NCBI GenBank assembly: GCA_007692605.1
Contig: REBS01000107.1
Location: forward strand, 1-37,425
DNA: 37,425 bases
Reading direction: 5' to 3'
Source of the DNA: Gemmatimonadales bacterium
GTDB taxonomy: Bacteria > Gemmatimonadota > Gemmatimonadetes > Longimicrobiales > Gaopeijiaceae
Below are positions 3,904-13,103 of the stretch, piece after piece. How positions within the stretch are numbered: the stretch's first letter is position 1; every line of letters begins with the position of its first letter. The translations under genes and the position numbers were made by a program. The notes beneath the pieces are model-generated. The model was not told where the DNA came from, searched no databases, and saw only the letters and a list, made by a program, of their open reading frames with translations.

Positions 3904-4845
3904 CTACCGGTCCCACTCCGCGACCTCGGGCCGCTCCCACCGCTCGGCCTTTGGCGAAAACCAGTTCGTCCGCACGATGTGCCAGAAGGCCGCCACCCCG
4001 TCCCGCCACCCGATCTTCTTGCCCTCGTCGTACGATCGCCCCCGGTAGCTGATCGGGAGCTCGTAGATGCGGGCCCCCGCCTGACTGAGCCGTGCCGTGA
4101 TCTCGGGTTCGATCCCGAACCGGTCGCGGGTCAGCGGAAGGGTCTCGAGCAGGTCCCGACGAATCAGCTTGTAGCAGGTCTCCATGTCGGTCAGGTTCAG
4201 ATCGGTGAAGACGTTGCTCATCAGGGTCAGCACCCGGTTGCCCACCGAGTGCCAGAACAGGTGCACCCGGTGCGCCCCACCCCCCAGGAAGCGGGAGCCG
4301 TAGACGGCGTCGGCCCACCCCGCCAGGATTGGCTCCAGGAGCATGGGAAGCTCCCATGGGTCGTACTCGAGATCGGCGTCCTGGATTGCTACCACGTGCC
4401 CCCGGGCGGCCTCGAATCCGGTCCGGAGCGCCGCCCCCTTCCCCTGGTTCCGCTCCTGGAAGATCAGCGTCTCGATCAGTCCCTCTTCTTCGAGCGACCG
4501 GAGCAGGGGCCGCGTCCCGTCGCCGGAGCCATCGTCCACGACCACCACGTCGAGGGCCAGGGGAAGCGCCCGGACGCGCCGGAGCACCGACTCGACCGTG
4601 GCCTCCTCGTTGTAGGTGGGGATCACGACGGAGAGGATCACGCGGTCCCAGGCGAGGGGCGCCCCCGGGGGAGGCATGGGCCGACCACTCGGCGCCATGG
4701 GCCAGGCGCCCCCGGTGAACGTCCGGACCTCGCCGGTGGCCGGCTCTCTGCCAGCCCTCGCCCGACCGGCCGGGCGATCCTCCCCGGCCGGCGGCTCCTT
4801 CCCCCCGGCCGGATGATCCGTCCTCCCCGCCGCCCCGCCCGACAT
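3904..4845 (-). CDS. Family 2 glycosyltransferase (polyprenol-phosphate mannose synthase-like)
   Basis: A GT-A fold transferase that probably moves a sugar from a nucleotide donor to a polyprenyl phosphate or envelope acceptor. The GT2 core starts with VVIPTYNEE. It has VVVVDDGSGDGT and the metal-binding region QDADLEYDP, then YGSRF and METCYKL, all typical of DPM1/GtrB-like enzymes. No C-terminal membrane helices are visible, so it resembles soluble DPM1 more than GtrB. The first 65 or so residues are disordered, rich in PAGG/PAGR, and encoded by repeated CCGGCCGG. The true start may lie inside this region. The ATG at 4845 overlaps the upstream stop (TGATG), and a GTG at 4848 is an alternative. 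Position between pilR-like and pilin genes invites a role in pilin or surface glycosylation, but nothing in the sequence proves that. Confidence 0.88.
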   Translation of the reverse strand: MSGGAAGRTDHPAGGKEPPAGEDRPAGRARAGREPATGEVRTFTGGAWPMAPSGRPMPPPGAPLAWDRVILSVVIPTYNEEATVESVLRRVRALPLALDVVVVDDGSGDGTRPLLRSLEEEGLIETLIFQERNQGKGAALRTGFEAARGHVVAIQDADLEYDPWELPMLLEPILAGWADAVYGSRFLGGGAHRVHLFWHSVGNRVLTLMSNVFTDLNLTDMETCYKLIRRDLLETLPLTRDRFGIEPEITARLSQAGARIYELPISYRGRSYDEGKKIGWRDGVAAFWHIVRTNWFSPKAERWERPEVAEWDR

Positions 4846-6245
4846 CACTCCCCGATGCCGTACTTCGAGATCTTGCGGTAGAGGGTCGAGGGGTCGATCC
4901 CGAGCACCTCGGCCGCCCGGCTCTTGTTGCCACCCTCGGCTTCGAGCACCCAGGCGATGTAGGCCCGTTCGATCACCTCCATCGGAGGATTGGGGGGAGC
5001 GTCCTCACTCACCAGCTGCGGGGTGGGCTCTTCGACGACGCGGTCGGGCAGATGCTCCACCCCGATCGTCTCCTTCTTGCCACTCAGGATCGCCGCCCGC
5101 TCGAGGGCATTCTCGAGTTCCCGCACGTTGCCCGGCCACGGGTGCGCGGCGAGCGCCTCCATCGCCTCCTCGCCGATCCGCTTCGGCTCGCCACCCTTGG
5201 CGGCCATCTTCTCGAGGAAGTAGTCCGCCAGGAGCGGAATGTCCTCCTTGCGGTCACGAAGCGGAGGCAGATGCAGCGCGATCACGTTCAGCCGGTAGTA
5301 CAGGTCGGTACGAAACTCCCCCTTCCGGATCTGTTCTTCCAGGTCCCGGTTGGTCGCCGCCAGGATCCGCACGTCGATCGGCTCCGATTCGGTCGAGCCC
5401 ACCGGGGTGATCTCGCGCTCCTGGATGGCGCGCAGGAGCTTCACCTGGGTCTTGGCGGCCATCTCGCCGACCTCGTCCAGGAAGAAGGTCCCCCCGGCGG
5501 CGGCCGACAGGAGCCCTCGCTTGTCCTTGACGGCCCCGGTGAACGACCCCTTCACATGCCCGAAGAGCTCGCTCTCGAGCAGGCTTTCGGGGAGTGCCCC
5601 ACAGTTGATCGAGAAGAAGGGCCCGTCGCTTCGATCCGAGAGGGCGTGAAGGTAGCGCGCCATCACCTCCTTTCCGGTCCCGCTCTCCCCGGAGATCAGG
5701 ATCGTCGAGTCGGTCGGGGCCACGGTGCGCACGAGCTTCAGGGCCTCCTGGAAGGCCTTGGCCTGCCCCACGGGCGTGAAGCCGTTCACACTCCCCTGGC
5801 GCCTGATCTCCTTCTTGAGCTCCCGGTTCTCGGCCTTGAGCTGCCTCGACTCGGCCGCCCGCTTGCAGATCGCCAGGAGCTCGTCGTTCGAGAAGGGCTT
5901 CTGCAGGTAGTAGTACGCCCCCTCGTTCACGGCGCGCATCGCGGTCTGAAGAGATGCCTGTGCGGTCATGAGAATGACCTGGATCTCGGGGTCCACTTCG
6001 CGGGCGCGCGCGAGAACCTCCAGCCCCGTCGCCCCCGGCATGCGGATATCGGAGAGGAGGATGTCCGGCCGCACCTCCTCGATCGCCTCCAGCCCCTTGC
6101 GGCCCCCGAGCGCCGTGTGCACATCGTAGCCGGCGCCGCGAAAGAGGACCTCGAGCGACTCCACGATCCCCATCTCGTCGTCCACGACGAGCACCTTCAC
6201 CTTGCCCTGATCCCCATTGGCCGCCACGCTCCCCCCTCGGTTCAT
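4845..6245 (-). CDS. pilR: PilR-like sigma-54-dependent transcriptional activator
   Basis: A full-length NtrC-class regulator of about 466 residues: receiver domain with D66 (LLSDIRMPG) and the YLQKPF lysine, then an AAA+ domain. The AAA+ domain has Walker A GESGTGKE (186-193), a sigma-54 contact loop GSFTGA (233-238) and Walker B FFLDEVGE. A C-terminal Fis-type helix-turn-helix follows (NKSRAAEVLGIDPSTLYRKI). It should bind upstream of sigma-54 promoters and open them by ATP hydrolysis once phosphorylated by the kinase encoded 36 bases upstream. A six-helix PilS-type kinase and pilins in the same run support the PilR assignment over other NtrC relatives. The first ATG (6245) lacks a clear Shine-Dalgarno; a GTG at 6227 preceded by GAGGGGGG is a good alternative start. 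Confidence 0.88.
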   Translation of the reverse strand: MNRGGSVAANGDQGKVKVLVVDDEMGIVESLEVLFRGAGYDVHTALGGRKGLEAIEEVRPDILLSDIRMPGATGLEVLARAREVDPEIQVILMTAQASLQTAMRAVNEGAYYYLQKPFSNDELLAICKRAAESRQLKAENRELKKEIRRQGSVNGFTPVGQAKAFQEALKLVRTVAPTDSTILISGESGTGKEVMARYLHALSDRSDGPFFSINCGALPESLLESELFGHVKGSFTGAVKDKRGLLSAAAGGTFFLDEVGEMAAKTQVKLLRAIQEREITPVGSTESEPIDVRILAATNRDLEEQIRKGEFRTDLYYRLNVIALHLPPLRDRKEDIPLLADYFLEKMAAKGGEPKRIGEEAMEALAAHPWPGNVRELENALERAAILSGKKETIGVEHLPDRVVEEPTPQLVSEDAPPNPPMEVIERAYIAWVLEAEGGNKSRAAEVLGIDPSTLYRKISKYGIGE

Positions 6246-6281: not shown

Positions 6282-8015
6282 CTACCGCTCCCGTCCTGCC
6301 TCCAGTGCCGCGGGCGCCCCACTCTCGCGCGTCGGGAACCCCGAAGGAAGGTAGATCTGAAAGTCCGCCCCCCCTCCGTCGGGCACCTCGACCAGGATGA
6401 CACCCCGATGCGCCTCGACCGTGCGGTAGACCACCGCCAGGCCCAGTCCGGTCCCTCCGTCACGGGTCGTGAAGAAGGGGTCGAAGATGCGATTGACCTC
6501 GTCGGGATCGATCCCGGGGCCCTGGTCGCGGATCGAGAGCAGGATCGGGTTCTTGATCTCGACATCTTCGGGGAGAGGTGTACCGGGCACCCCCTCGAGC
6601 CGGAGCGTCACGGTGCCACCGGCCGGACTGTGCTGGACCGCATTCAGCAGCAGGTTGAAGAGCGCACGGTGGATCAGGTCGGGATCCACCGTGGCCAGAA
6701 TCTCCTGATCGGGCAACTCGCTGTGAATCCGAACCTCTCCACCCTCGGTCGCCGGGTGCTGGCCGACAAGGGCCACACAGTCCCTGGCCAACTCATTGAT
6801 CGAGACCTCTTCGACCCGGTCGACCCGGACGCGCGAGAAGTCCAGGAAGTCCGAAAGCAGCCGGCTCAGCCGGTCCGACTCCCGCACCACCATCCTCGTC
6901 AGCGCTTCCCTGTCCTGCTGCGTCAGGTTCGGCGAGGTGAACTGCTCGACCGCACTTCGAATCGACGACAGGGGGTTCTTGATCTCGTGCGCCATCGCCG
7001 CCGAGAGTTCTGCGACCGCCTCCAGCCGCTCGGTCCGCCGGTTCAGGATCGCCATCCGCTCCAGATCGGTGATGTCCTGGAAGATCGCGGTCACCGAGCG
7101 GGGCTCGTCGGGCTCGTCACGCACGAAGATCGAGACCCCAAAGACGAGCTCCTCTCCGTCCCGCACGGCGTCGGCCCGGAGCCGGTAGAGCGAGATGCCC
7201 TTGGTCAGTGCCTCTCCGAGCTTGGCGGCCAGCGCCGGAGCGCGGTTCCGGAGGGCCTCGACCGCCGACGCCCCTTCCCATTCCGCAATGTCGATCCCGA
7301 GGAGGGCTTCCCCGGCGGGATTCATGTACAGGAGCCGCCCCTTCTCATCGACGGTCACCACCCCGGTGCTGATCGAGGCCAGGATCTCCGAGGTGTCGAG
7401 GCGAAGCCGGCGGAGCTCCGACTGCATTTCCCCCAGCGCCGTACCGGTCCTGCGCAGCCGATCTCCCAGGATCCCCGTGAGGATCGCCACCAGGGTGAAC
7501 AGCACGATCTGCAGCCAGACCGCCCCGGTGAGGGTATCGGCGTGCAACCAGACGATCACCGAGAAGTACAGGATCGACGCGAGCGCCGAGATCAGCACAC
7601 CCCCGGCAATCGGGAGCAGGAGTGCCCCTTCCGAGATCACCAGGATGTAGAGCCAGGCGAACGTGCTTTCGCCGCCGCCCGTGATGTGCACCACCGCCGT
7701 GACGAGGAGCGCGTCGAAGGCCACCTGGGCGGCGTGGAAGTTCCGCCCGGGTTCGCGGTCCAGGAATTCGGTGTACCATGCAGACCCCGCGGTCACGAAG
7801 AGCGCGACGAGGAAGGCGACGGTCGAAAGGAAGGTCTGCTCTGGCTGCGCCTCTCCCCAGACGACCAGCGCGCCGAGCAGAATTCCGAGGGTGAGGACCA
7901 GTCGGCCCAGATAGATCCAGCGCAGGATGTTGCGGGGAGTGAAGCCCGCGACCCGTTCTCGCGGCTCGCGCGCAGCCCATCGGCGCACCGGGGACCCGTC
8001 CTCCGGCCTGCTCAC
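6282..8015 (-). CDS. pilS: PilS-like membrane sensor histidine kinase with PAS domain
   Basis: A 577-residue kinase starting with GTG at 8015, overlapping the upstream stop by four bases (GTGA). About five to six hydrophobic helices fill residues 30-185 with short loops, the architecture of PilS, which senses within the membrane. In Pseudomonas PilS the signal includes the pilin subunit itself. A PAS domain follows (about 205-315: ILASISTGVVTVD, MNPAGEALLG, IFQDITDLERM). Next come the H box AMAHEIKNPLSS with His at about 343, the N box LFNLLLNAVQHSP, the G1 box DQGPGIDPDE and the G2 box GGTGLGLAV. All catalytic boxes are intact. The PilR-like regulator follows after 36 bases. Specific PilS identity is inferred from the membrane topology, PAS domain and linkage to pilins. 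Confidence 0.88.
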   Translation of the reverse strand: MSRPEDGSPVRRWAAREPRERVAGFTPRNILRWIYLGRLVLTLGILLGALVVWGEAQPEQTFLSTVAFLVALFVTAGSAWYTEFLDREPGRNFHAAQVAFDALLVTAVVHITGGGESTFAWLYILVISEGALLLPIAGGVLISALASILYFSVIVWLHADTLTGAVWLQIVLFTLVAILTGILGDRLRRTGTALGEMQSELRRLRLDTSEILASISTGVVTVDEKGRLLYMNPAGEALLGIDIAEWEGASAVEALRNRAPALAAKLGEALTKGISLYRLRADAVRDGEELVFGVSIFVRDEPDEPRSVTAIFQDITDLERMAILNRRTERLEAVAELSAAMAHEIKNPLSSIRSAVEQFTSPNLTQQDREALTRMVVRESDRLSRLLSDFLDFSRVRVDRVEEVSINELARDCVALVGQHPATEGGEVRIHSELPDQEILATVDPDLIHRALFNLLLNAVQHSPAGGTVTLRLEGVPGTPLPEDVEIKNPILLSIRDQGPGIDPDEVNRIFDPFFTTRDGGTGLGLAVVYRTVEAHRGVILVEVPDGGGADFQIYLPSGFPTRESGAPAALEAGRER

Positions 8016-8644
8016 TCCGATCGGATCCCGAGTCCCAGCCCGCCCGACCCAGCCGGCCCGAGCTGCCCAGCTCCGGGTCGAGGCGTACGGTAAGCATTCA
8101 ACTCGATCACCAGATCGCGGATCCTGCGGATCTGCCGCTCGACCACCTGAAGCGATTCCTCCTGCTCGGAACCCGGCTCTACATCAAGCAAGGTAAGCTG
8201 GACCTCGGCGAGTGCCGCAGTCAGAGGGTTGTTGATGTCATGCCGAACCGTGGCGAGGTCTGCCATCGCATGGCGAAACGAAAGGTACCCGGCGGCCGAT
8301 CCCCCTGCCGCCAGACGCTCCGAAACGCGAGCCGGGGACTCCGGCCATCCCGGACTCAGGGGGATCATCCGGACGTCCGAGGCATGCGAGGCCTGCAGCC
8401 CAGTCACAAGCAGAGGAGACCAGGCGGCGAGAGAGTGGGAGAGTCGAATCAGCAGGTCCCGAAGGGCATCGCCATCGACATCGTCGGAGATCAGGATCCA
8501 GCCGGGTGCGTGGTCAGAACCGGGGAAGGCATGCAGATCCCGGATGGGAACCGGGGCCCCCATTGGCTCCGGCAACGTCAGCCCCTCCACCCCGCCCGAC
8601 CTCAGCAGCGCCGAACCCGCCAGGTACAGGGGCCCGTTCGTCAT
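8012..8644 (-). CDS. DHp/HisKA-only protein lacking a kinase ATPase domain
   Basis: A 210-residue soluble protein. The C-terminal half holds a recognisable dimerisation/phospho-acceptor helix pair. An H box RHDINNPLTAAL has His at about 135 and is followed by a second helix ending near residue 190 (QIRRIRDLVIELNAY). No HATPase_c domain (N, G1 or G2 box) follows, and the protein ends in a short Gly/Pro-rich tail, so it cannot autophosphorylate by itself. The first 125 residues have no motif I can name. It overlaps the upstream gene by ATGA and the PilS-like gene by GTGA, so it is made together with both. It could act as a phosphotransfer intermediate (in the manner of Spo0B), as a dimerisation partner of PilS, or be a degraded kinase. 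The retained H box and intact overlaps argue against simple decay. Confidence 0.75.
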   Translation of the reverse strand: MTNGPLYLAGSALLRSGGVEGLTLPEPMGAPVPIRDLHAFPGSDHAPGWILISDDVDGDALRDLLIRLSHSLAAWSPLLVTGLQASHASDVRMIPLSPGWPESPARVSERLAAGGSAAGYLSFRHAMADLATVRHDINNPLTAALAEVQLTLLDVEPGSEQEESLQVVERQIRRIRDLVIELNAYRTPRPGAGQLGPAGSGGLGLGIRSE

Positions 8645-10110
8645 CGGCCCGAGGGAACCTCGAGGACCTGACCGGGATGGATACTCCCGGACCGAAGTCC
8701 ATTCGCGTCTCGGAGCGCGTCGACCGTGACGCCGTGAAGGTTCGCAATCACCCAGAGCGATTCGCCCCTCCGAACCTCATGCTGCACGATTCCGCCATTC
8801 TGCTCGCCCACCCCTGCCGTGAGCCCACTCGGGGACGAACTCCCGCCGGAGGGAATCGTGAGTTCCTGCCCCACCACGATTCTCGTTCCGGTGAGACCGT
8901 TTTCCCGCCGCAGATCGAGCTCCGAGACGCCATAGGACCGCGCGATCGCCCAGATGGATTCCCCACGGGCCACTTGGTGGACACGGGTGCGGGGCGACGC
9001 ATCGACACCGCTCGCTGCCCCGGGGCCGTCCACGTCGTCAGAGGAATCCGACGAACCGTCGAGCGTTGCCGATGTCCGGTCACCCGATTCCACCTCGCCG
9101 GTACCCGGCACCCCCTGCTCGGTCGTCGGCTCCGCGGTCGTGGACGCCTCCGCAGTCGATGACGCCTCCGCGACCCGAGTTGCGGGCTGCTGAGTCGGAG
9201 TCGCCGAAGGCACCGTCTGATACACGGGAATCCGAAGCACCTGACCGACATTGATCCGACTCCCCTGGATCCCGTTCTCGGCCTGAATGCGGGCGAGTGC
9301 CGCCCCATAGCGGCTCGCGATCAGGGTAAGCGTTTCCCCTCCCCGAACCGTATGGCGCACCCATTCGACCTCGACCGCAGGTCCTGCGTCGAGTTCCTCG
9401 ACGATGCGGTCGTTTCCGGTGATCTCAGCCACGTACTGAATGTAGGGGGTCGGATAGACGGCCAGGTGGTAATGGGGCGGGTTCCGTTCGTAGATCGCCT
9501 CGATCACACCCCGCCCTTCAAGCGAAAGGAGGGTGGACTCGAGCCAGCTCCGACAAGTGGCGCTCCCACTGCGGCGGAGGTCGACCGCCATCCCCGTGGG
9601 GTGGACCGATCGCGACGAGGCGTTGCGGGGCTGATTCGAGATCGGGCGGGTCAGGCTGGTCACCACCAGCTTCTCGCCGCACGCGGCACGATACTGCTGG
9701 CTCAACCGGTCCAGAAACACCCGAACTTCGGGCCGCGCGTATGGATAGGACACGTTATGGAGATCCAGATCCCGAGTCGGCACGATCGGCACGAGGTACC
9801 CGAGTTCCACGAACCGGGTGACCTCTTCAGGGGTTCTCAGGTAGCTGAAGTTGTGGAGCTGTGCCTGTCGGTTCTGGCGATCCAGTGAGGCCTGGCCTCC
9901 GCGCAGGGTCTGCGCCGCGAGTTCATCGGTCCCCAGCACCGAGGAATTCGGCAGTCCGATGAGGCTCGAGGAAATCACGAGCCCCGCCGCGAGCGCGACG
10001 CGCCCACCCCACGATCCGATCGAGTTCCCGGTCCGCGACCCCCTCCGTACCTCGAACCGGAAAGGGATTCGCGACTCGCTCCGCCGTCTGCAGCCAGAAA
10101 CTTTCCACAT
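8641..10110 (-). CDS. Exported protein with M15-like peptidase domain and three LysM repeats
   Basis: A 489-residue protein probably acting on or binding peptidoglycan. A hydrophobic segment at about 37-54 looks like a signal or anchor after a basic N-terminus of 37 residues, which is long. Residues 75-225 contain SVHPTGMAVDL and PPHYHLAVYP. These match the His-x6-Asp and His-x-His zinc ligands of M15/VanY-type peptidases (H170, D177, H213/H215); I believe this is the DUF5715-type family. LysM repeats lie at about 252-296, 377-421 and 442-487, each with a GE(S/T)L or GESIW start and NVGQ/VVGQ/HPGQ end. The first and second are separated by a Ser/Thr/Glu-rich linker of about 80 residues. GAGGA nine bases upstream supports the ATG. 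It heads the overlapped run leading to pilSR. Whether it is a hydrolase or only a wall-binding protein is not settled. Confidence 0.82.
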   Translation of the reverse strand: MWKVSGCRRRSESRIPFRFEVRRGSRTGNSIGSWGGRVALAAGLVISSSLIGLPNSSVLGTDELAAQTLRGGQASLDRQNRQAQLHNFSYLRTPEEVTRFVELGYLVPIVPTRDLDLHNVSYPYARPEVRVFLDRLSQQYRAACGEKLVVTSLTRPISNQPRNASSRSVHPTGMAVDLRRSGSATCRSWLESTLLSLEGRGVIEAIYERNPPHYHLAVYPTPYIQYVAEITGNDRIVEELDAGPAVEVEWVRHTVRGGETLTLIASRYGAALARIQAENGIQGSRINVGQVLRIPVYQTVPSATPTQQPATRVAEASSTAEASTTAEPTTEQGVPGTGEVESGDRTSATLDGSSDSSDDVDGPGAASGVDASPRTRVHQVARGESIWAIARSYGVSELDLRRENGLTGTRIVVGQELTIPSGGSSSPSGLTAGVGEQNGGIVQHEVRRGESLWVIANLHGVTVDALRDANGLRSGSIHPGQVLEVPSGR

Positions 10111-11419: not shown

Positions 11420-11696
11420 GCGCCTCCCCCATATTGAACGCTAAGTAACGATCGATGACCGGCTTCTCGAGACCCGCTACACGCATTGTGTCGCGACCCC
11501 GAGCGCCCTCGCTCTTATCTCGAGACTGGCAGCAGGGTTCCCTCTACCCGGCAACCCAGGTTTCGGAACACAACCCCATCCTGGTCCCGGAACCCCACCC
11601 GTGGCCCTCGCGGGTTGTCCGAAGGAGGTGTTGGTCGGAGGCGAGTCTGCCCCCAATACCCATGGGCTCGCCCCAGCGGATCCGCTTGGTTCCCGC

Positions 11697-13103
11697 ATGG
11701 ACCTCAGACACCGCTCATTGGATCCCGCTGATCGGGGCCTTCGCATCCCCCCGGGACGAACGCCCTCGATCCCACCCCCCGCATGCTCCACGATCCGACG
11801 GCTCATCGAAGAGGAGCTCCTGGACGAAATGCGCCGATTCCGCTTCCCGCTCGCACAGGGATGGATCTGCCCTCGCTGTCACTCGACCCGGACCATCCGC
11901 TGGGGCCGGTCGGGCTCGCGTCAACGCTATCGATGCAAGGGTTGCCAACGAACCTTCAACGACCTGACGGGGACTCACCTCGCGGGCACGAAGTACCTTC
12001 ATCTATGGCCGGCCTTTGCCTGGTGCATGGCGCTTGCACTTCCGGTTCGAGAAGTCTCGGCGCGCCTCGGGATCAACAAGGACACCGCTCTCCGCTGGAG
12101 GCACCGACTGTCGGAAGCCTACGAGCGGCGGTACTCAGGCCCGATCCGGGACACTGAGGTCGCGATCAGTGCGCACCTGCAGAGGACTTCGGAGAAGGGC
12201 CTGCGTCCGCAGAATCGTGAGCCTCGCAGAGTCAGCCGCTACCCATTTCGTGGGCTTCTCTCCGATCGGGAGCAGGTGGTCGTACTGTTCTTCTCGACCC
12301 GCACTTCAGGACCGACAGGATTCACCGCGATCCGACTTCGCGCCGGGCAGCCGTCATCCTTTCACTGGGAGCTCCTCCTCGACTCCCTCCTGACCGGCAA
12401 GACGGATCTGATCACTCGAACAGGAAAATTCAGCGGCTTGTGCACCTACGCTCGGAGGGCCGGGCACCGAATCATCGACCCAACCAGAAAACCCGGGGTG
12501 CCCCTTACCCCGGGAGTCAAAGGGGCCCCACCGCCGGCGCAACGAGAGGTCGCCCTGGGGATGATCCAGAGCGCCCAGGCTCATCGATCCAGCTGGAGGC
12601 GGTGGATTCCCCGGTTTCATGGCATCGCCACTCGCTACGTGCGTCACTACCTGGCCTGGCATAAGCACCTGGTCGGACTCACCCCGGGTGGGCCCGGCAA
12701 CCCCGTATCCGGCCTCGTTGCGGAAAATCACATCGGGATGGGGCGCTTGGCAGTGGAAATCCTGAAGCCGGCGTTCGCCCCTCCCGGTCCTTCCTGGACG
12801 CCCCCAGCTCCCCCCACCACTCACCCCCTCCTGCCGGGCGCCAACATCTCCCTGGGACATCGTGCGAGGGCTTCGCGGAGGGGTGCGATGTCGGGGGGGC
12901 GCTGGGGACTCCATGCGCTCCTGGAGCCGGAGCGACCGGAGGATGCCCCCCAACCTTTCTCGGGGAGGCCTCCACCTCCATCCAGCCGATCCTGGCCGCG
13001 TCCACCGCGGGCTCTCGGGTTCGGCAGGTGGGAGTTCCGCCTGGAACATCCTTCGCCACCATCCGACCCTTCTCCTTCACAGCAAGACGGGGACGAGCCA
13101 TGA
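11697..13103 (+). CDS. IS1595/ISXO2-like transposase relative with apparently lost catalytic residues
   Basis: The first recognisable part is a zinc ribbon, CPRC followed by CKGC about 19 residues later (11868-11945), then FNDLTGTHLAGTK and a helix-turn-helix (VREVSARLGINKDTALRW). This order matches IS1595-type transposases. A recognisable family C-terminus follows near 12590-12680 (RRWIPRFHGIATRYVRHYLAW). The positions where the family carries its DD(N/E) residues do not match. The DET-like site reads AISAHL (about 12160), the SDG-like site reads TRTG (about 12410), and the Asn before YHSR is replaced by SAQAHRS. It is therefore probably inactive. The last 140 codons are proline-rich and resemble no transposase. 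Third codon positions look less GC-rich than in neighbours. No terminal inverted repeats were found. The start is uncertain (GTG 11601, ATG 11697 or ATG 11829). It may be a domesticated DNA-binding protein or a decaying remnant. Confidence 0.6.
   Translation: MDLRHRSLDPADRGLRIPPGRTPSIPPPACSTIRRLIEEELLDEMRRFRFPLAQGWICPRCHSTRTIRWGRSGSRQRYRCKGCQRTFNDLTGTHLAGTKYLHLWPAFAWCMALALPVREVSARLGINKDTALRWRHRLSEAYERRYSGPIRDTEVAISAHLQRTSEKGLRPQNREPRRVSRYPFRGLLSDREQVVVLFFSTRTSGPTGFTAIRLRAGQPSSFHWELLLDSLLTGKTDLITRTGKFSGLCTYARRAGHRIIDPTRKPGVPLTPGVKGAPPPAQREVALGMIQSAQAHRSSWRRWIPRFHGIATRYVRHYLAWHKHLVGLTPGGPGNPVSGLVAENHIGMGRLAVEILKPAFAPPGPSWTPPAPPTTHPLLPGANISLGHRARASRRGAMSGGRWGLHALLEPERPEDAPQPFSGRPPPPSSRSWPRPPRALGFGRWEFRLEHPSPPSDPSPSQQDGDEP

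Follow-up and report, generated by a model that had tools for sequence, protein, structure and literature searches.

A HisKA protein without an ATPase domain encoded beside pilS in a family of Gemmatimonadota

The locus described here raises the question of what a protein could do that carries the phospho-acceptor domain of a histidine kinase but no ATPase domain, and whose gene lies directly in front of pilS. The window, by which we mean the whole stretch of 37,425 nucleotides analysed, encodes such a protein (P0001) on the reverse strand at 8012..8644, in an ORF of 210 amino acids with an ATG start. Upstream in the same gene run is a gene for a DUF5715 and LysM protein, recognised with Pfam (8641..10110), and this order is kept in most genomes that carry the gene. 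Downstream, and also on the reverse strand, are a complete PilS-type histidine kinase with a GTG start and Pfam matches to 6TM_PilS, PAS, HisKA and HATPase_c (6282..8015), an NtrC-family response regulator of the PilR type with REC, sigma-54 activator and Fis HTH domains (4845..6245), and an ORF that overlaps pilR by four bases and whose translation reads as a family-2 type glycosyltransferase (3904..4848). The first-pass annotation had described four-base overlaps on both sides of the gene, and these were found, bases 8641-8644 being common to it and the LysM gene and bases 8012-8015 to it and pilS. The source genome has three pilT-family genes above the curated cut-off, which makes type IV pili plausible in this organism. 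Elsewhere in the window there is a second two-component pair, consisting of a HisKA/HATPase kinase (1151-2611) and the receiver of a further regulator (825-1148); in several relatives a PilS/PilR-like pair occupies the place that matches 825-2611. The ORF at 11601-13103 reads as a zinc-ribbon transposase-like protein, of the IS1595 type by eye.

A DHp domain with no ATPase domain after it

The DHp/HisKA domain comprises residues 117-189 (8078..8296, reverse strand), as defined by Pfam, an AlphaFold hairpin and invariant residues. Pfam HisKA (PF00512) matches residues 130-182 over profile positions 6-57 of 66 with E=1.8e-9 and a score of 37.9 bits, the curated cut-off being 26.9 bits. It is the sole domain found, and no HATPase match was obtained in Pfam at E<=1, so that the early description of an H box and second helix without an ATPase is upheld. 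The protein ends 21 residues past the DHp, where pilS begins, in a Gly/Pro/Ala-rich tail (residues 190-210; 8015..8077, reverse strand) that is unconserved and absent in most homologues. In one sister gene (L033:7303-7503) the tail is enlarged by a Gly/Ser/Ala-rich repeat that is mostly missing from the window protein. Only fragments of kinase models were matched in NCBIfam, and only a generic kinase-like match was returned by the phage family library. In the source genome a HATPase_c match lies downstream of 28 of the 30 HisKA matches; the two without one are a match on contig C18 that falls below the cut-off and the protein studied here, which exceeds it. With no HATPase_c after the DHp, a complete histidine kinase is ruled out.

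The H box, RHDINNPL, corresponds to residues 134-141 and places His135 at the phospho-acceptor position. Helix 1 bears His135, Asp136 and Asn139, and helix 2 spans approximately residues 160-184. AlphaFold, run on the window protein with one relative, gives a hairpin of 117-154/160-184 with a core pLDDT of 58-85, which is the sole usable part of the model (mean pLDDT 41.7). HisKA was matched by all 20 members of the alignment of the window protein and its homologues (E<=1), and across 25 aligned family members H135, D136, N138, N139, L141, T142, E147, Q149 and Q171 are invariant; the expectation that homologues keep His135 was therefore borne out. The sequence HDINN at 135-139, with Asp136 at H+1 and Asn139 at H+4, is an intact H(E/D)xxN/T motif, by which bifunctional split kinases have been picked out (PMC3591291). 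For kinase activity CrdS requires the H+1 acid, which its phosphatase activity can do without; the latter depends on the H+4 Asn (PMC3510030). By this comparison the retention of both Asp136 and Asn139 is compatible with the acceptance and with the removal of phosphoryl groups; as both residues are widespread among DHps, they show that a function has been kept, not which one.

Selection on the gene was assessed by comparison with a genome of the same genus (G001, the sequence of which is also SLBA01000123, a Gemmatimonadetes MAG). Residues 117-189 differ by 20 synonymous changes and one nonsynonymous change, a dN/dS of 0.013, and the corresponding values are 0.068 for PilS and 0.062 for PilR. 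The DHp is under strong purifying selection and the gene is maintained. A chance ORF is ruled out by this value together with the occurrence of the gene in 26 genomes of the family.

Distribution of the gene and its association with PilS

Of the 121 family genomes searched with a profile built from 20 homologues (E<1e-30), 26, in 18 genera, carry the gene. PilS was found in 54 family genomes, and in a 55th a fragment of PilS lies next to the gene where the contig ends; when this fragment is added, PilS is present in 26/26 carriers. The gene is absent from all 66 genomes that gave no PilS match. The carrier and PilS counts are not independent, the genomes being related. In 24 of the 26 carriers the gene immediately precedes pilS on the same strand, and the recurrence of this arrangement beside an intact PilS rules out a fragment of a broken PilS. 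A literature search on Gemmatimonadetes with PilS found nothing.

The gene had been described as locked between its neighbours and as an unrecognised component of a PilSR relay. It does encode a conserved candidate phospho-acceptor that is tied to the pilS locus and co-varies with PilS, but it is absent from 29 family genomes that have PilS, and in several of these the LysM gene abuts pilS directly. The gene is thus an accessory part; a core PilSR component, which should be present wherever PilS is, is ruled out by these 29 genomes. Mapped on a 41-row PilS tree, the presence of the gene requires 12 changes, at least 10 of which are forced by well-supported branches. Distances for the gene and for PilS are nevertheless correlated (Mantel r 0.79, reached in 0 of 5000 permutations), which fits an old companion of PilS that has been repeatedly lost. 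The gap to pilS, approximate throughout because starts were extrapolated, is -14 to +28 bases in seven members of the window's PilS clade and 38-185 bases in the other PilS clade; one further value in the window's clade, -70 bases, was extrapolated from a start that has diverged. Palindromic stretches lie between the DHp gene and pilS in two loci, GTGTTTCGCAAATTGCGAAACAC at L111 1101-1171 and CTCTCGCTTGCGAGAG at L048 8085-8130, and are possibly operator or terminator elements.

The N-terminal domain, ATPase-less relatives and neighbouring regulators

The protein had been taken to consist of a DHp only. This did not hold, as residues 1-116 (8297..8644, reverse strand) form a faster-evolving domain (dN/dS 0.28 against the same-genus genome) that resembles a degenerate receiver. 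When a profile of this region only was searched against the 851 proteins of the collected loci, true receiver domains were matched at E 1.2e-4 to 7e-4, among them a source-genome receiver (L198) that is unlinked to any DHp. REC-DHp proteins of other Gemmatimonadota families align with the window protein over its full length; in family f6 the receiver before the DHp is intact and above the Pfam cut-off, and another locus (L050) gives a weak Response_reg match below it (E=0.0036). The N-terminus of the window protein itself has no match to Response_reg (PF00072) in Pfam, and the receiver hallmarks are gone: the phospho-Asp column is occupied by Ser53, strand 1 is not followed by an acidic pair, and the Lys region is missing. 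The same region searched as a profile against the PDB gave weak receiver matches with a smaller alignment (E 0.25-0.77) and none with a larger one. Alignment by hhalign with 16 source-genome receivers was collinear but weak (P 0.025 global), and AlphaFold modelled residues 1-116 with very low confidence. The domain is probably a degenerate receiver, an assignment that the PDB searches and the failed model leave short of certain.

In a tree of 69 DHp segments, in which the relatives had been found by likeness to the query and all kinases came from one genome, all 40 ATPase-less DHps (families f1, f2, f6 and f9) are separated by a branch with 98/98 support from the 29 ATPase-bearing DHps of the source genome, PilS included. 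The window DHp is accordingly placed by this tree in one clade with the ATPase-less DHps of three other Gemmatimonadota families, and a copy of the DHp of PilS is ruled out by the distance between the two. The ATPase-less relatives take the form of bare DHps, of REC-DHp proteins with a degenerate or intact receiver, and of REC-DHp proteins with a second receiver-like part. Bare DHps of 72-84 amino acids occur in family f2 (L056:1584-1814, L054:9033-9263, L055:7140-7376, L053:7907-8146, L058:1576-1794 and L060:6089-6343); they are highly conserved (RHDANNPITAALGHVQLLL) and adjoin a gene reading as gcvH; acyl-CoA dehydrogenase-like genes are close by, and none of the adjoining genes is of the two-component type. 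Those of family f6, of 61-66 amino acids (L224:4616-4807, L059:7770-7955, L222:4462-4662 and L226:4585-4785), each follow a conserved hypothetical gene, which encodes 94 amino acids in L059 and L224, and their loci include a gene that reads as rho. Proteins of approximately 350 amino acids with a REC-DHp arrangement, no ATPase and a C-terminal second receiver-like part are encoded at L219:5282-6340, L220:4618-5676 and L218:5031-6080, where the genes overlap an upstream REC-HD-GYP gene by 8 bases. From its sequence, a protein of 363 amino acids in family f3 (L227:3830-4921) appears to be PAS-PAS-DHp; it stops shortly past the DHp and apparently lacks an ATPase as well.

Relatives that have a receiver or receiver-like N-terminus adjoin a gene for a REC-HD-GYP regulator in seven loci. 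In two genomes of family f9 (G266 and G284) this gene follows the DHp gene, and in four f6 genomes the DHp gene follows the REC-HD-GYP gene, the HD-GYP part having been checked by sequence or Pfam for three of them. The seventh is G020, one of the two family carriers in which the gene is away from pilS, where a REC-only gene, the DHp gene and a REC-HD-GYP gene stand in series with 4-base overlaps. In the other such carrier, G037, the DHp gene follows a GAF histidine kinase gene, so that in both the gene is beside two-component genes. The pilSR operon of the source locus contains no second regulator gene. The source genome does encode an orphan REC-HD regulator (L195, on contig C126) that is 33-38% identical over its length to the REC-HD-GYP partners of the relatives, with the GYP motif changed to GYL.

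The helix-1 stretch that follows the phospho-histidine touches the regulator in known complexes (PMC3433190). From H+7 to H+15 it reads TAALAEVQL in the window protein and SSIRSAVEQ in PilS. More similarity would be expected here between proteins with a common regulator, and the difference makes shared binding of PilR doubtful. PilR as sole partner appears less likely on this account, and the partner may be another regulator.

Possible functions and their meaning

As the gene is conserved beside pilS in about half of the PilS-bearing related genomes, its product probably does carry phosphate or act as a phosphatase. The reading we favour, held at about even confidence, is that of an ATPase-less phosphohistidine protein that transfers a phosphoryl group to, or removes it from, a response regulator, forming an optional side branch at the pilSR locus. 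Two copies of the protein would form a four-helix DHp bundle bearing His135, and the receiver-like N-terminal domain would act as a docking or regulatory platform that is no longer phosphorylatable. His135 would receive a phosphoryl group from a partner, either the aspartate of a response regulator or the ATPase domain of a kinase acting in trans, for which PilS would be the obvious candidate, and would hand it on to a second response regulator. Through Asn139 the same DHp could also hydrolyse the phosphoryl group of the regulator. The protein would then couple the PilS-PilR locus to a second output and would not be an obligatory step from PilS to PilR.

It is also conceivable, if unlikely, that the protein is a dedicated PilR-P phosphatase in which the DHp alone hydrolyses and sets the off-rate, His135 being structural or catalytic with no relay. 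The tight gene linkage to pilS and the invariant H+4 Asn are in keeping with this, as the equivalent residue is the phosphatase residue of CrdS and EnvZ has phosphatase activity without its catalytic domain, as cited in the same study (PMC3510030); free CheA3, which is the half of a split kinase that has no ATPase, likewise acts as a phosphatase (PMC3591291). Asp136 is however also invariant here, though CrdS phosphatase activity needs no H+1 acid, the regulator-facing helix is unlike that of PilS, relatives are paired with other regulators, and PilS itself retains an HExxN motif.

Translational coupling to pilS, co-inheritance with PilS and the proposal that many ATPase-less HisKA proteins are split kinases (PMC3591291) could point instead to a hetero-dimer, in which the protein pairs with the DHp of PilS as an inhibitor or a trans-phosphorylated substrate. 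We regard this as quite improbable: PilS is a complete kinase that has a His and an ATPase of its own, the DHp is no copy of that of PilS, the gene is away from pilS in two carriers and minimal relatives adjoin metabolic genes. With the differing helix and the relatives beside other two-component genes also taken into account, the dimer partner suggested by the first-pass annotation has gained no specific support. Similarly doubtful is the view that a different regulator is served, for example the orphan REC-HD protein, and that the position at pilS reflects co-expression only. The REC-HD-GYP neighbours of REC-DHp relatives in f9, f6 and G020, and the likeness of the orphan to them, would favour it, but the confinement of the gene to genomes with PilS and the altered GYP motif of the orphan do not.

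HisKA proteins without HATPase are known more widely, numbering 1556 of 42417 (3.66%) in one survey, 711 of them with the H(E/D)xxN/T motif (PMC3591291). The protein described here shares these features, but belongs to a defined, conserved family tied to pilS and has a probable degenerate receiver in front. In CheA3/CheA4 of Rhodobacter sphaeroides the phospho-acceptor is likewise split from the ATPase and the free acceptor is a phosphatase (PMC3591291); that system is of the CheA type, with a P1 domain and a dedicated ATPase-bearing partner, whereas no ATPase-only gene is adjacent at the source locus and PilS combines HisKA and HATPase_c in one protein. ChpT and PhyT of Alphaproteobacteria are histidine phosphotransferases thought to derive from degraded kinases (PMC3433190; PMC5898713), and ChpT keeps an atypical Bergerat-fold domain, which the window protein lacks, its extra domain being N-terminal and receiver-like. 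A Spo0B-like role had been proposed from the outset, and in mode the comparison with Bacillus subtilis Spo0B may well apply, with a two-helix DHp hairpin expected to dimerise, a phospho-His and no autokinase activity; the order REC / DHp / REC-output in G020 also resembles Spo0F / Spo0B / Spo0A. Spo0B however has a degenerate ATPase domain after the DHp, where the window protein has only its 21-residue Gly/Pro-rich tail. The SPOB_a model does not match the window protein and matches one of 20 alignment members at E=0.25, and the ChpT and HPt models do not match the window protein at E<=1 (HisKA only). Membership of the Spo0B or ChpT families is ruled out by these absent matches and the likeness is one of mode.

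The dimeric His-phosphotransferases Spo0B, ChpT and PhyT are viewed as decayed kinases, and Spo0B and ChpT retain a dead ATPase-like domain. The Gemmatimonadota family has no such domain, and presents a gradation from intact REC-DHp through probable degenerate receiver-DHp to bare DHp of 61-84 residues, each form with fixed gene neighbours. This gradation within one phylum makes the origin of a phosphorelay step from a kinase directly testable, and the bare DHps are small proteins in which transferase activity, phosphatase activity or both can be measured. Tentatively, and with more doubt than belief, it may be proposed that Gemmatimonadota have a phylum-wide set of ATPase-less phosphohistidine modules, which serve as His-phosphotransferases in front of REC-HD-GYP (c-di-GMP) regulators and range from bare DHp proteins of 61 amino acids up to REC-DHp and REC-DHp-REC, and that in one family the pilSR operon captured the module. 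If this is true, that capture joins the control of pili to a second phospho-output.
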